NCBI GenBank assembly: GCA_902560315.1 | Contig: CACELG010000001.1 | Span: 62,001-126,000 of the forward strand | Direction: 5' to 3' | From: an uncultured SAR86 cluster bacterium | GTDB lineage: Bacteria > Pseudomonadota > Gammaproteobacteria > Magnimaribacterales > D2472 | DNA: 64,000 nucleotides | Shown: one piece after another, positions 47,434 to 53,695 of the stretch | Position numbering within the stretch: position 1 is the first letter of the stretch | Layout of the letters: each line of letters starts with the position of its first letter | The notes under the pieces: generated by a model | What the model saw: the letters and a program-made list of their open reading frames with translations, nothing else | Told to the model about the DNA's origin: nothing | Databases searched by the model: none | Translations under genes and position numbers: made by a program

Positions 47434-47864
47434 ATGAAGATAAATACCTTGTTTTAAGAGGAAAAAATAAAGATATATACTTTATACAAAAGCGCTTATC
47501 TAAGGAAGTTTCAAAGATTATGGGTAAAGAATTTATAAAAAAATCCCTTGAAACAACAGATATCCATATTGCAAGGCAAAAAAGAGATAAAATTATTGAA
47601 GAACTTGAACAAATAGCCGTAAATTCTTCACTAAATAAAGAAAATATGCATTATTCTAGCGGAATTTACAATGTACCCATTGAAAAAGAGTCAATAAATA
47701 AACTTGAGAATGACATTTTAGTGAATAATTCAAAAACAAAAAATAATAAATTTGCAATTTTTTCATTAAAAATTCCAAATAAAGAAGATTTAATAGAAAA
47801 TATTGATAAATTTATACCAATAGGTATTGTTATATTAACTTTATTTATTGCTTTTGTTGCTTAA
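47424..47864 (+). CDS. integrase-N-terminus-like protein with a C-terminal membrane anchor
   Basis: A 146-residue protein. The first 65 residues (DKYLVLRGKNKDIYFIQKRL, then KKSLETTDIHIARQKRDKII) resemble the N-terminal SAM-like/DUF6538-type region of tyrosine recombinases, where a short beta part is followed by a SLgTsd-AR-RRd pattern. No catalytic recombinase domain follows; instead a low-complexity Asn/Lys linker leads to one membrane segment (about 127-146, FIPIGIVILTLFIAFVA). I take ATG at 47424; a start at 47403 would add seven residues. It overlaps the convergent kinase gene by 20 bp. Function unknown; it could be a domesticated DNA-binding protein tethered to the membrane. Confidence 0.5.
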   Translation: MSTNEDKYLVLRGKNKDIYFIQKRLSKEVSKIMGKEFIKKSLETTDIHIARQKRDKIIEELEQIAVNSSLNKENMHYSSGIYNVPIEKESINKLENDILVNNSKTKNNKFAIFSLKIPNKEDLIENIDKFIPIGIVILTLFIAFVA

Positions 47865-48666
47865 TCTTCTTCTTTAATAAATTTAAATAATCTTTATCAA
47901 AATGGTTTTTATTGAGTTGATTTATGTAATTAGCCCAAATTAATTCAGTATAGACATTCATTAAACTCCACTTTTTAATCTTTGTATTAATGCTTTCACT
48001 AATTTCATCTATTCCATAACCTTTAAGCAATTTATCTTTTTCTGATGTTTTTAGATTCAATGATTCAATTAATTTAGATAAGTCTGAATACTTGCTGTTT
48101 AAACTTAAATATTCAAAATCAATAAAAACAATTTTATTATTTTTGAACATCACATTTGAAAAATTTAAATCGTTATGGCTAAGAACATATTTTTCTTTGC
48201 CTACATTTAATTCATTAAATAGCTCAACAGCATCTTTAAAATATTTATTATCCAATTCCGATGAAGATACATTTAGATATACATTGAATTGATCTTGAAA
48301 AGTTTTTGTTTTTTTACTTGATGTAATTTCATGTAACACTTTTAATTTTTTTCCAAGTTGATAAAAATTATTAAATTTTTTGTCTAATGAATCCCTTTCA
48401 AAATATTCGTAGATAATTAGTTCTGAATGTAAGTCGTGAAATAAAATTTTTGGAGAAATGTTTTTTGTATTAATTTTTTGGATTATTCCATTTTTTAAAT
48501 ATTCATTAATAATTAATTTAAATTTATTTTTTTTTGATAACTTAAAAATTGATTTTGTATTATTAAATTCTCCTAAAAATATTTGTGAAGTCTCTCCATC
48601 ACCAATCTGTTCTATGACTTTGAAATTATAATTTTCTTTTTTTAGTATTGTTTCTAATTTTTTCAT
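47845..48666 (-). CDS. choline/thiamine kinase-like phosphotransferase, probable thiamine salvage kinase
   Basis: A 273-residue protein kinase-like small-molecule kinase (APH/ChoK/ThiK group). The catalytic loop is LSHNDLNFSNVMF and the metal site IDFEYLSLN, both typical of choline and thiamine kinases. By sequence alone choline, ethanolamine or thiamine could be the substrate. It is the third gene of an operon controlled by a TPP riboswitch and overlaps the PnuC-like gene by 4 bp, so phosphorylation of imported thiamine is the best reading (inference from context). Confidence 0.8.
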   Translation of the reverse strand: MKKLETILKKENYNFKVIEQIGDGETSQIFLGEFNNTKSIFKLSKKNKFKLIINEYLKNGIIQKINTKNISPKILFHDLHSELIIYEYFERDSLDKKFNNFYQLGKKLKVLHEITSSKKTKTFQDQFNVYLNVSSSELDNKYFKDAVELFNELNVGKEKYVLSHNDLNFSNVMFKNNKIVFIDFEYLSLNSKYSDLSKLIESLNLKTSEKDKLLKGYGIDEISESINTKIKKWSLMNVYTELIWANYINQLNKNHFDKDYLNLLKKKIKQQKQ

Positions 48667-49232
48667 GGATATTCTTCTAATTTTTTATTCCAAGATTTAT
48701 ATCCAAAAATAATAATTATTAGATATATGAAAAATAATAGAGAGGTTAGATATAACTCCCTTGAAAAAAATAGGTATATAGATATTGAATCAATCACAAA
48801 CCAGTAGATCCAATTTTCAATAATCTTTTTTGCTACCATGTATGTGGTAATAATAGCTCCAAAAGTTGTAAATGCATCTAAAAAAGGAAATACAGCATTT
48901 GTATATTTTTCAAGAATTTCTCCTGAAATTATTGCAAGTATCACTATTAAACTTATTGCGTATACATGCTTTATTTTTTTCCATTTCTTAATCCTTATAA
49001 CACATTCTTCATTTGATACTTTATTCCATTGATTCCAACCATAAATGGCCATGGTAATATAAAAAATTTGTAAAATTGCCTCCATTAATAGACCAGCATC
49101 AAGCATTATAAAGAAGTATAGGGATGAACTAATTAACGCCGCATACCAGCACTTTATGTCTTCTTTAGCAGCTAAGACTAAATAGAGTATTGCTGTGATA
49201 ACAGCAATAATTTCTGGAATTAAATTTAACAT
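48663..49232 (-). CDS. pnuT: PnuC-family permease, probable thiamine transporter (PnuT)
   Basis: A 189-residue inner membrane protein with about seven membrane segments. The PnuC-family marks are IYGWNQW in the first half and WIYWFVIDSISIYLFF plus FGYKSWNK in the second. The family transports vitamin precursors by facilitated diffusion with metabolic trapping: PnuC takes nicotinamide riboside, PnuT takes thiamine. TPP-riboswitch control together with an adjacent kinase favours thiamine. It starts 5 bp after the TonB receptor gene ends. Confidence 0.85.
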   Translation of the reverse strand: MLNLIPEIIAVITAILYLVLAAKEDIKCWYAALISSSLYFFIMLDAGLLMEAILQIFYITMAIYGWNQWNKVSNEECVIRIKKWKKIKHVYAISLIVILAIISGEILEKYTNAVFPFLDAFTTFGAIITTYMVAKKIIENWIYWFVIDSISIYLFFSRELYLTSLLFFIYLIIIIFGYKSWNKKLEEYP

Positions 49233-49237
49233 TGAAT

Positions 49238-51337
49238 CTAAAAATTATATTTAAGTGAAATGCCAATATGCTTAGGGTCTCCTTGTCTTCTATATAGAGT
49301 ATCAATAAAGTTAGGCGCTTCGTTGCCAAAGAAAAATCCTCTAGTTGAATAATATTTATTAAACAAATTTCTTATCCACAGATCAACAGTAAAATTAGTA
49401 TTTGAGTATCCGAAAGTTAAGTTAGTTAATTGATAGCTTTTAGACTGATTGTCGTGTGAATCTGAATAATAAAAACTACTTTTTCCGTTAATATCTAATT
49501 TTAAATAGAAGTTATTTTTAAGATTTAAATTTCCACCAATAGAATATGAATGCTCTGGTGCGTGAGCTTGTGATCTATCTTCTAGATCAATTCTTGATTC
49601 CCAATTTTTAATCTTTGTTTTAAGGAATCCTAAATTAGCATATATATATAAATTATCTGTTACCAAATAATTTGAAGTAATTTCAATTCCGTAGTTTTCT
49701 CCGTCTGCAGCATTTTGAGTTAAGTATGAAAAAGTATTAGGGTCACTTGGATCAACTTGTCTAGAAATCAAAACTTGTTGATCTTTTCTTTCAGAGAAAA
49801 ATATTACAAGTGAATAATTCAGATCTCTATCCTTTAGGTTTGAGCTTACACCAAATTCATAATTAGTTAGATATTCAGGATCATAAATAAGAGATTGTTT
49901 TACTAAATTATCTGTAGCATCAAGACCAAGATTAAATCCACCTTGTTTATATCCTCTTGCTATTGAAAAATAAATATTTGAATCATTATTGGTTTTTTTG
50001 ACTATCGAAATTTTTCCACCACTCATATTATCTGAAGGACTAAAAGATTCATTATTTGAATCTTTATATTTTGAATCCCAATTTTCCAATCTCAAGCCGA
50101 AAGCAAGTTTAGTTTTATCTGTTAAAAAATAATCAATATTTCCAAACACTGATAAATTTTCAGATTCATAATTTCTTGAAATTGAAGATTCACTAGCATA
50201 TGGTCCAAAGGGATCTGACGGATCTCCATAAATTCCATCATCTTTAGTTATATTTGATTCATCTAATTCACTAAAATGTAAACCAAAGACCCATTCAAAT
50301 GGATTTTTTTGAGAAAAATCCTTATTTTTTGACAAAAAACGTATTTCTTGACTAAAAGTGTCTCTTTTTCTTAATGTTTCAGAAAAATAATCATAGGTAT
50401 ATGGAAAATGTGAGTCAGGGTTACCCCAATCTGCATCATAACTGAAAACAACATCAGTTTTTGTTGAGCTTGTTAAACTTTGGAGATCAAAATTATTTAA
50501 ATCCTTAGTTATTTTTATTCCAATTGAGTCTGTTATTTGTGAATCCATTCCTGGACGATCTGATAAAGTATCTAAACTTCCATCAATTGTCCAAATATCA
50601 GCTGGGTCATCCATATCAATTTTTGAAACAAGAAAATTAATATTTGTAGTTTCATTAATTTCCCAATCAAGTTTGTAACGCAAAGTTAGCTCATCTTTTT
50701 TTGAGGTATCTGATTTATTTAAGTAAGTATTTTTTCTAAATCCGTCGGCATAGTCAGTTCTCATTACCAAACGATATTTCATTTTTTCATTCTTTAATGG
50801 TCCTCCAAATGCGATTCCAATATTTTGGGTTCCATAATCTCCTAAAGTTAGCTCAGAAGTTCCTTCAAATTTATCTGTTGGATCTTTGGTTTTTATATAA
50901 ATTAATCCTGCTAAAGCATTAGCACCTGTTCTCGATCCTTGAGGTCCACGAAATACTTCAACTTGATCAACATCAAATAAAGTTGCAATGCCTCCCTGTC
51001 CAGAATAGTCGATGTCATCGATAAGAAAACCAACAGAGGAATTTGGTGTTCCCTGATAACCAGATCTTTCTCCTACACCTCTTATCTGAAAATATCTTGC
51101 TCTTGAATCTGAAGCTGCATAATTTAAATTTGGTACAAGATATGAAAGTTGCTGAAAATGTTTTATAGCTTGTGACCTAATTTTCTCTGACTGAATAATT
51201 AAGATACTTGAATCTTCTTCAATGATAGATTTTTCTCGATATTCACCTTTAACAATTATTTCTTCAATGCCCTGTGAGAAAATTGAAAGTGAAAATACTA
51301 ATGTTGATAAAGATAAGATTTTGTTACTGACATACAT
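49238..51337 (-). CDS. TonB-dependent outer membrane receptor, probable thiamine receptor
   Basis: A 699-residue gated barrel. It has a signal peptide (MYVSNKILSLSTLVFSLSIF), a TonB-box-like EEIIVKG, the plug domain with DQVEVFRGPQGS and a 22-strand barrel that ends with a C-terminal Phe (SLKYNF). The start is chosen at ATG 51337 because GGAGG lies eight bases upstream and a signal peptide follows; the longer frame would run into the riboswitch. The TPP riboswitch in its leader and the downstream PnuT and kinase genes point to thiamine or a thiamine-related compound as substrate. It shows general FecA/CirA-like features, so siderophores cannot be fully excluded from sequence alone. Confidence 0.9.
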   Translation of the reverse strand: MYVSNKILSLSTLVFSLSIFSQGIEEIIVKGEYREKSIIEEDSSILIIQSEKIRSQAIKHFQQLSYLVPNLNYAASDSRARYFQIRGVGERSGYQGTPNSSVGFLIDDIDYSGQGGIATLFDVDQVEVFRGPQGSRTGANALAGLIYIKTKDPTDKFEGTSELTLGDYGTQNIGIAFGGPLKNEKMKYRLVMRTDYADGFRKNTYLNKSDTSKKDELTLRYKLDWEINETTNINFLVSKIDMDDPADIWTIDGSLDTLSDRPGMDSQITDSIGIKITKDLNNFDLQSLTSSTKTDVVFSYDADWGNPDSHFPYTYDYFSETLRKRDTFSQEIRFLSKNKDFSQKNPFEWVFGLHFSELDESNITKDDGIYGDPSDPFGPYASESSISRNYESENLSVFGNIDYFLTDKTKLAFGLRLENWDSKYKDSNNESFSPSDNMSGGKISIVKKTNNDSNIYFSIARGYKQGGFNLGLDATDNLVKQSLIYDPEYLTNYEFGVSSNLKDRDLNYSLVIFFSERKDQQVLISRQVDPSDPNTFSYLTQNAADGENYGIEITSNYLVTDNLYIYANLGFLKTKIKNWESRIDLEDRSQAHAPEHSYSIGGNLNLKNNFYLKLDINGKSSFYYSDSHDNQSKSYQLTNLTFGYSNTNFTVDLWIRNLFNKYYSTRGFFFGNEAPNFIDTLYRRQGDPKHIGISLKYNF

Positions 51338-51420
51338 ATGCAATTCCTCCGCAACTATTGTGTTGATCAGGTTCAAAGAGTTTCATAAGATCTCAGGCTA
51401 AATTAGCCACCCCTTTGCAT
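51338..51420 (-). promoter_or_regulatory. TPP riboswitch (THI element) with embedded ribosome binding site
   Basis: The minus-strand RNA has the conserved blocks of the thiamine pyrophosphate aptamer in order: GGGGUGGC, a P3 hairpin GGCUA/UAGCC, CUGAGA (51391-51396), AACCUGAUC (51365-51373), a P5 hairpin CAAC/GUUG and GCGGAGGAA in place of the usual GCGUAGGGAA. P1 is AUGCAA (51415-51420) with UUGCAU (51338-51343). The GGAGG is the ribosome binding site, and the AUG follows directly after P1. Binding of TPP should therefore hide the site and stop translation of the receptor gene. Confidence 0.95.
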
Positions 51421-51583
51421 GCTTATATGTTAATGAATAAAAATTAAAAGGTCACTTATTCTTTTGACTTTTCTGATAAATTTTTCAAGTTATCGCAAGT
51501 AAGCTTAATATATTTAGCTGGTGCAGATTTATACTTTAGTTATAAAAAATCTATGGTTTTTAGTATAAAATTATTACCGCATA

Positions 51584-53695
51584 TCAATTATTTATTGAAT
51601 ATAAAGCATAACCATAAATCTCTGAAATCTGATTTATTATTTTATCCTTTGGAGTTCCTGCACCATGTCCTGCTCTATCTTCAATCCGAATTAATATTGG
51701 ATTTTCGCAGCCCTGATATTCTTGAAGTTTAGCTGCAAATTTGTATGAATGAGAAGGAACAACTCGGTCATCACGACTCGCTGTTGTAACCAATGTAGTT
51801 GGATAACAGTTATCTTTCTCGATGTTATGCAGTGGACTATAAGCTAAAAGATTTTCGAATTCATCTTTTTTATCTACAGATCCATAATCACTTTCCCATG
51901 CCCAACCAATTGTAAATTTACTAAACCTCAACATATCCAAAACTCCAACTTGTGGAATAGCAACTTTGAACAAATCTGGATTTTGTAACATGGTAGCTGC
52001 AACTAGAAGTCCTCCATTTGAACCACCAATAATTGCAGTAGTTTTTTCAGAGCCAATATTATTCTCATGTAAAAATTTTGCAGCAAATGCAAAATCGTCA
52101 AAAACATTTTGTTTGTTTAGTAACATTCCAGCTTCATGCCATTCATTACCATATTCTCCACCACCTCTTAAATTTGCTACCGCATATACTCCACCCAAAT
52201 TTTTCCAAGCAGCATGAGTTTTTCTAAAACCTGGTAAAAGAGAAATATTGAATCCCCCATATCCGTATAACATTAAGGGTGTATCTTTATTAATTTTTAA
52301 TCCTTTCTTGTAACTAATATGTATAGGAATTTTTGTTCCGTCTTTTGAAGGATAAAATTTTAATTCTGAGACATAATCCTCTGACTCATATCCATCAATT
52401 TCTTCTTTCCAAAAAAGTTTTACATCTAATGAATCCAATTTGATTTCATATATCTCTCTTGGGGTAACGTAGTTTGAAACTGAAAAATAAGTTTTAGTGT
52501 CATCGATCTCTCCACCAAATCCACCAATAGTTCCATTTTTTGGTAACTCAAGATCTTGTACAAAATTTCCAGATAGATCAAAAATTTTTATACTAGAAAA
52601 AGTATCAATTAAATAATTAACAACAAATGAATTGTTTATAGCGTTTACAGATCGGATGGAATTTTCTGATTCTTCAATAACATCATTCCAAACAAAAGAA
52701 CCATTTTTAAGCTCTAAATTAACAATTTTGCCATTTGGGGCCCCTTCAGTTGTATAAAACCACAAAATATTGTCTTTACTGTCAATAAAGCTATAAGCTC
52801 CTATCAATTCATCTATTAAAGGAAGGAACTTTTCACCTGGATTTAACTGGATATAGAGCCTATTTCTTTCATCAGTGCCCTCTGAAATTGATAAAAGTTT
52901 AATATTTGTATCTTCTACTACATTAATGCCCCATCCCCATCTTGGTTGATCAGGATTTTCATAAAAAACTTGGTCTTCTGATTGATCAGTTCCAATCTTA
53001 TGAAACATTAGTTTAGGAGATTGGTTTATATCTTTAAGTAGCTCTTGATTTGGCTCGTTATATTTTTGATAGAAAAATCCAGAGTCATCATTCTCCCATG
53101 TGGCCCCAGAAAATTTAGCCCATTTGATTTCATCTGAAAGAATCTCACCAGTTTCAATATTCATAACCTTCCAAATTCGCCAATCAGAACCTCCGTCGGA
53201 AATCGAATAAGCAATATGATCAGCATTATTATTAACACTAGTACTTCCCAATGAAATTGTGCCGTCTTCAGAAAATGTATTAGGATCTATAAGAATGCGC
53301 TCTTCGCATTCATCACAGTCCTTGATCATCAATTTGCTTTGCTGAAAAGTACCGTCATTAAAATAATAAAAAGTTTTATCTTCGACTTTATAAGGAGTAG
53401 ATATAGATTCATTTTCCCAAATCTTTTCTAAGTATTCTCCTATATCTCTTTTGAATTTATTTTTACCAATATACTTCTTTGTATAATTATTTTGCCTCTT
53501 AACCCAATTAATAGACTCATCACTTGTAAAGTCTTCTAACCATCTATAAGAATCTGAAATTTCATAACCATGAATGTTTTCGACAAAATCTATCTTTTTT
53601 GATTCTGGATAAAAACTTCCATCGTCATTGCTAGAACATGAAATTAGAATTATTAAAGAGAATAAACCAAGGAATTTTTTATACATAGAAAACAT
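51584..53695 (-). CDS. prolyl oligopeptidase family serine peptidase (S9A), lipoprotein
   Basis: A 703-residue peptidase that cleaves short peptides after proline. It has a lipoprotein signal with lipobox LISC (Cys20), so it should be anchored on the periplasmic side or in the outer membrane. A seven-bladed propeller (about 75-420) is followed by the alpha/beta hydrolase domain with nucleophile GGSNGG, Asp in SRDDRVVP and His in RAGHGAG. Secreted S9A enzymes fit a life on dissolved peptides. The divergent YciC-like gene starts only 19 bp away. An internal ATG three codons in (MYKKFLG) is an equally good start. Confidence 0.93.
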   Translation of the reverse strand: MFSMYKKFLGLFSLIILISCSSNDDGSFYPESKKIDFVENIHGYEISDSYRWLEDFTSDESINWVKRQNNYTKKYIGKNKFKRDIGEYLEKIWENESISTPYKVEDKTFYYFNDGTFQQSKLMIKDCDECEERILIDPNTFSEDGTISLGSTSVNNNADHIAYSISDGGSDWRIWKVMNIETGEILSDEIKWAKFSGATWENDDSGFFYQKYNEPNQELLKDINQSPKLMFHKIGTDQSEDQVFYENPDQPRWGWGINVVEDTNIKLLSISEGTDERNRLYIQLNPGEKFLPLIDELIGAYSFIDSKDNILWFYTTEGAPNGKIVNLELKNGSFVWNDVIEESENSIRSVNAINNSFVVNYLIDTFSSIKIFDLSGNFVQDLELPKNGTIGGFGGEIDDTKTYFSVSNYVTPREIYEIKLDSLDVKLFWKEEIDGYESEDYVSELKFYPSKDGTKIPIHISYKKGLKINKDTPLMLYGYGGFNISLLPGFRKTHAAWKNLGGVYAVANLRGGGEYGNEWHEAGMLLNKQNVFDDFAFAAKFLHENNIGSEKTTAIIGGSNGGLLVAATMLQNPDLFKVAIPQVGVLDMLRFSKFTIGWAWESDYGSVDKKDEFENLLAYSPLHNIEKDNCYPTTLVTTASRDDRVVPSHSYKFAAKLQEYQGCENPILIRIEDRAGHGAGTPKDKIINQISEIYGYALYSINN

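Follow-up and report, generated by a model that had tools for sequence, protein, structure and literature searches.

Results

Organization of the locus

Within the window, by which we mean the whole 64,000-nucleotide stretch of SAR86 DNA analysed here, a TPP riboswitch stands on the reverse strand upstream of three genes of thiamine biosynthesis or transport type, encoding a TonB-dependent receptor (TBDR), a transporter of the PnuC/PnuT type and a ThiK-like kinase (Table 1). The pnuT gene begins 5 nt downstream of the receptor gene and is itself overlapped by 4 nt by the thiK-like gene, and the order TBDR-PnuT-ThiK is kept in eight relatives. Upstream, on the same strand and about 160 bases away, lies a prolyl oligopeptidase gene. 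In the genome, which is 90% complete, thiL is present while neither thiC nor thiE was detected; the SAR86 host is apparently thiamine-auxotrophic. A closed feedback loop is predicted, in which thiamine that is taken up would be passed through ThiK and ThiL to TPP, which in turn would repress uptake.

Table 1. Positions of the riboswitch, its parts and the adjoining genes in the window
Feature	Position	Strand	Basis
TPP riboswitch aptamer, P1 to P1	51338..51420	-	RF00059 model 1-105
Candidate -10 hexamer TAACAT, transcript start near P1 5' edge	51427..51432	-	Family-wide -10-like enrichment; inferred
P1 5' arm AUGCAA	51415..51420	-	RF00059 alignment; compensatory C-G to U-A in relatives
P2 5' AGGG	51414-51411	-	RF00059 alignment
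P3 stem-loop GGCUA/UAGCC	51396..51408	-	RF00059 alignment and structure counts in relatives
UGAGA, conserved pyrimidine-binding motif	51391..51395	-	RF00059 alignment; family-invariant
P2 3' CUCU	51380-51377	-	RF00059 alignment
P4-P5 arm CCU..CAAC..GUUG..AGG (binds pyrophosphate in known TPP riboswitches)	51346..51371	-	RF00059 alignment; relatives
P4 5' CCU	51371-51369	-	RF00059 alignment
P5 CAAC/GUUG	51365-51352	-	RF00059 alignment
Shine-Dalgarno GGAGG, its AGG forming the P4 3' strand	51346..51350	-	Sequence, RF00059 alignment, family alignment
P1 3' arm UUGCAU, adjoining the start codon	51338..51343	-	Sequence, RF00059 alignment, relatives
Receptor start codon AUG	51335..51337	-	MYVSNKILSLSTLVFSLSIFS signal-peptide-like N-terminus; conserved in genus
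TonB-dependent receptor, omr1-like, presumed thiamine/thiamine-derivative receptor	49238..51337	-	PF07715 5e-11, PF00593 3.5e-24
PnuC/PnuT-type inner-membrane transporter	48663..49232	-	PF04973 1.6e-48; TIGR01528 over cut-off
Thiamine-kinase-like (ThiK/APH fold) kinase	47845..48666	-	TIGR02721 6.7e-11 (below curated cut-off), PF01636, PF02958

The Rfam covariance model RF00059 matched at 51424-51327 (-) with 59.7 bits (E = 3.4e-9 for 64 kb against 4227 Rfam families), above the gathering cut-off of 54.3 bits and over all 105 model positions, and this is the sole TPP riboswitch match in the genome. The limits given in the initial annotation proved to be exactly the 5' and 3' ends of P1 by sequence, covariance-model alignment and letter-by-letter reading, and the model places GGAGG inside the aptamer core. 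The same annotation had called the riboswitch minimal, a description that fits the leader; the aptamer itself has all five helices and is missing only the optional P3a. P4 has 3 bp here, the model's fourth P4 pair being a G.G mismatch.

As had been noticed from the letters, the block with the consensus uAGGGA reads GAGGAA in the window and supplies the Shine-Dalgarno (SD) sequence GGAGG, the AGG of which pairs with CCU in P4. Compared with the TPP consensus UAGGGA, for which a duplex of -5.8 kcal/mol with the anti-SD sequence is predicted, the SD of the window reaches a predicted -9.5 kcal/mol; the change to GAGGAA thus provides a stronger ribosome site at the cost of the G.G mismatch in P4. 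Only AA separates GGAGG from the P1 3' arm, and this arm ends exactly where the AUG begins, which puts the SD 8 nt from the start codon and leaves a gap of 0 nt between P1 (51338) and AUG (51337), within the 15-nt limit for direct translation attenuation. An open reading frame starting with TTG at 51376 and running through the aptamer was rejected, since the AUG at 51337 has both an SD and a signal-peptide-like start, and relatives agree. The number of terminator-like sites in 51300-51700 was zero. With no such site and no space for further structure, a separate expression platform or terminator is ruled out, and the anatomy is conserved family-wide, in agreement with the earlier claim that the element works without one.

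Upstream edge of the leader

Upstream of the aptamer, a -10-like hexamer was found 10-20 nt before the P1 core in 64/64 distinct upstream regions of the family (shuffled mean 41, maximum 50), most often at -16 or -15 relative to that core. A promoter scan of the window alone stayed below shuffled expectation, so that only the family-wide test is informative. Hexamers placed just before P1 would set the transcript start within a few bases of this helix, and the 5' UTR would probably consist of the aptamer and little else. About 30-40 nt upstream of P1, a CTATAGATTT- or CTATATCTTT-like block recurs in many relatives, though not clearly in the window; it may represent a variant -35 element or the site of a regulator.

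Conservation among SAR86 relatives

A scan of the family gave an RF00059 match in 70 of 107 genomes, mostly drafts, from which 71 loci were read and 61 distinct sequences aligned (alignment A1). The SD lies inside P4 and the AUG next to P1 in 71/71 loci, all of which have GCGGAGGAA in P4, then the P1 3' arm, then AUG. GGAGG is invariant in all 61 distinct sequences, as is GGAGGAAU (61/61), which argues that the position of GGAGG in the aptamer is not due to chance. Nearly or fully invariant in A1 are also the ligand-contact cores CUGAGA, GAACCUGA and the GCG before the P4 3' strand; outside A1, some relatives have GAACCUGAAC where GAACCUGAUC stands. In the genus of the window the P1 3' arm is UUGCAU or UUACAA with the AUG next to it, and in other genera of the family the sequence is UUGCAUG, UCGCAUG or UUACAUG, so that the A of the start codon is also the last base of P1 (a one-base overlap).

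The helices, too, are maintained. In the family structure counts 94.2% of cells were paired, against 31-55% in slid controls, and 85 cells had both sides changed, against a shuffled mean of 34 (0/500 shuffles as high). Such double changes occur in P1, P2, P3 and P5: in P1, C-G is replaced by U-A in four sequences, with one further U-G, so that its pairing is kept through compensatory changes across relatives, and in P5 two pairs show such double changes, found in 22 sequences. P4 and the SD strand never vary, and covariation is therefore uninformative on P4. In two loci (L049:602-694 and L058:602-694), the P1 5' arm is shorter by one A (CUGCAAGGGG) and the 3' arm is AAUCGCAUG, which breaks or shifts a single pair of P1.

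A search with the receptor among named genomes returned 55 loci of SAR86 cluster bacteria, with 96% identity at best. The element is present, with its SD in P4 and the AUG beside P1, in 54/54 of those that hold the leader, the 55th locus ending at a contig edge. Ten carry the GAACCUGAAC variant, two of which were scored by Rfam at 55.1 and 59.9 bits. No RF00059 match was found among the ten listed genomes of one genus (g3; G002-G011), where the riboswitch may have been lost or the GAACCUGAAC variant (55-60 bits) may have been missed by strict filters. The same arrangement of SD and AUG recurs in another family of the same order (L163). The anatomy of SD, start codon and aptamer, its conservation and its gene context are thereby established.

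Folding energetics

In the ligand-free model, the AGG of the SD is already paired with CCU, with an unpaired probability of about 0.02-0.18 at 37 °C for all modelled 5' ends except the shortest. Secondary structure alone thus gives no ON state, and TPP would act by making the SD harder to melt, a switch that would rest on a difference in stability beyond what the energy model can show. Without ligand, opening the five SD bases is predicted to cost 1.5-4.1 kcal/mol in 13 relatives, as compared with the predicted -9.5 kcal/mol of the anti-SD duplex; for the window the values are 2.8 kcal/mol for the SD and 5.6 kcal/mol for the SD through the AUG. These predicted energetics are compatible with, but not decisive for, a ligand-lowered access of the ribosome. 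The total folding energy was no better than that of shuffled sequences (z = -0.08) and is useless as evidence for structure.

TPP riboswitches in other Proteobacteria

We surveyed 119 TPP elements from other Gammaproteobacteria and the wider Proteobacteria, a sample biased to high-scoring hits, in which rules based on ORFs and SDs set the start codons and only the direct cases were then inspected by eye. Convincing direct cases, with the SD in the P4 3' strand and the AUG at most a few nt away from P1, numbered 8 of 119 (L111, L126, L135, L137, L150, L157, L165 and L176). A further candidate, L130, was rejected because its GTG lies upstream of the likely thiC start. Like the window, L111 and L135 have GGAGG and an AUG that immediately follows P1. 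The genes and leaders of the eight differ from those of the window, and several of them retain UAGGGA or UAGGAA as the SD. From reading of the sequences plus one Pfam check, all eight look like they precede transport genes: a PQ-loop protein (L111 and L135), a symporter-like protein (L137), a PnuC-like protein (L126) and, among the remaining transport-like genes, MFS and ABC ATPase. None of the eight stands before thiC, against 75 of the other 111 elements (Fisher p = 0.0002).

Discussion

The genes, the position of the SD and the conservation described above make it likely that this RF00059 TPP riboswitch acts on a thiamine-uptake operon as a repressor, through direct occlusion, with the vitamin-bound sensor itself probably blocking translation. 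The proposal of the initial annotation that ligand binding itself hides the predicted SD is therefore a plausible one. At low TPP, the 3-bp P4 and the short P1 would be too weak to keep out the 30S subunit, and initiation could proceed. Once bound, TPP would clamp the P2-P3 arm, the P4-P5 arm and P1, and the SD would be locked in P4, by which translation of the receptor would stop; pnuT and the thiK-like gene, being 5 nt away or overlapping, would be lowered too, probably via coupling. We infer that TPP binds, that its effect is repressive and that the switch operates by melting rather than re-pairing, with TPP adding stability against melting of P4 and P1 by the 30S subunit.

A mechanism of strand exchange would instead have the P1 5' arm (GCAUGCA) pair elsewhere in the absence of TPP, so that TPP alters which segment is exposed, with UGUAUGU over the start codon or the coding sequence as examples of a partner. 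Indeed, in the lowest-energy fold of the isolated RNA (51330-51422) the UGUAUGU over the AUG is the partner of GCAUGCA, and a 2024 review (PMC10907184) places TPP riboswitches under strand exchange. The pairing at the AUG shifts in some longer constructs. Against it, P1 is conserved and the partner is not, most of the genus having UAUGUAUAU and other genera AUGAA or AUGCA in its place, and the full alternative helix is missing in close relatives. Moreover, hiding the AUG without ligand would be the opposite of the control expected for an uptake gene. We regard this exchange as quite improbable.

A division of labor, in which occlusion is the trigger and most mRNA is lost by Rho-dependent termination or decay once translation has stopped, seems unlikely as the main route of control, despite the dual translational and Rho-dependent control of TPP riboswitches cited in PMC10907184 and the absence of an intrinsic terminator at the locus; it is in any case compatible with direct occlusion rather than opposed to it. 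That GGAGG and AUG are merely an ordinary ribosome binding site overlapping by chance with a degenerate, non-binding THI element is very hard to believe. The score just 5 bits over the gathering cut-off and the G.G mismatch in place of one P4 pair of the model would suit such an element, but CUGAGA, GAACCUGA and GCG are (nearly) invariant despite a very A+T-rich, fast-changing background, and the helices covary in the family.

Direct occlusion by a TPP aptamer is in itself not new. Burial of the ribosome binding site in the aptamer core was predicted for TPP riboswitches by Rodionov et al. 2002, as cited in PMC2258182, and Barrick and Breaker 2007 (PMC2258182) list direct translation attenuation as a category of riboswitches, with the ribosome binding site in the aptamer core and the start codon within 15 nt as its criteria. 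The impression of an unusually compressed switch is thus not supported as to kind; what we describe in SAR86 is a well-conserved addition to a mechanism class known since 2002-2007. As in the window, the TPP riboswitches of that class use the conserved, purine-rich block towards the aptamer's 3' end as ribosome binding site and have no separate platform. The SAR86 elements differ in that the distance from P1 to the AUG is 0 nt in the genus of the window, with the A of the start codon inside P1 in other SAR86 genera, and in that the block is GAGGAA instead of uAGGGA in these Gammaproteobacteria, giving a stronger SD. The 2024 review groups direct-occlusion riboswitches separately from the TPP switches that it places under strand exchange (PMC10907184). 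In two SAR86 clusters (MAGs), omr1 with a nearby TPP riboswitch was reported in 2024 (PMC10881298), matching the window in lineage, kind of gene and riboswitch family; the passages of that paper retrieved by term search report the presence of the riboswitch, and SD position and mechanism do not come up in them. Among the open-licence papers searched, we found no description of the SD-in-aptamer anatomy of SAR86.

SAM-II, SAM-III, preQ1-I type III and preQ1-II riboswitches likewise hold the ribosome binding site in the ligand-bound fold, with aptamer and platform as one unit, although their aptamers are unrelated to that of TPP and many are pseudoknots. The SD makes contact with the ligand in the preQ1 switch of E. 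coli. In TPP aptamers such contact is made by J4/5, and the neighboring P4 strand, which carries the SD in the window, is not known to take part in it. Sampled in depth and built in a way that hardly allows for more than direct occlusion, the SAR86 element offers a clean natural example of a TPP riboswitch, and its RNA could test whether TPP binding without strand exchange suffices for control of translation. It further points to a way in which the uptake of vitamin B1 may be controlled with almost no regulatory DNA in an ocean bacterium that is abundant and apparently thiamine-auxotrophic.

The initial annotation had also linked the compact switch to a streamlined genome. In the class sample, direct cases make up 5/15 elements in genomes of at most 1.9 Mb and 1/75 in larger ones (p = 0.0004), in line with this idea, although the sample is biased and genome size is partly confounded with gene type; among non-thiC elements alone the counts are 5/10 and 1/23 (p = 0.005). 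As L111 and L135 come from one genus and the comparison carries no tree correction, we treat the link as a lead. The survey suggests that the direct mode for uptake genes is used convergently. Somewhat doubtful, and put forward as a tentative idea, is the broader reading that direct-occlusion TPP switches form a recurrent, convergent subtype of small-genome Gammaproteobacteria, serving uptake genes only and never thiC, of which SAR86 would be the case with a 5' UTR equal to the aptamer, transcription from the P1 edge and the start codon at or inside P1. GGAGG at this place of the aptamer is not confined to SAR86: of 103 TPP aptamers from other Proteobacteria whose core is recognizable, 17 have it as well.
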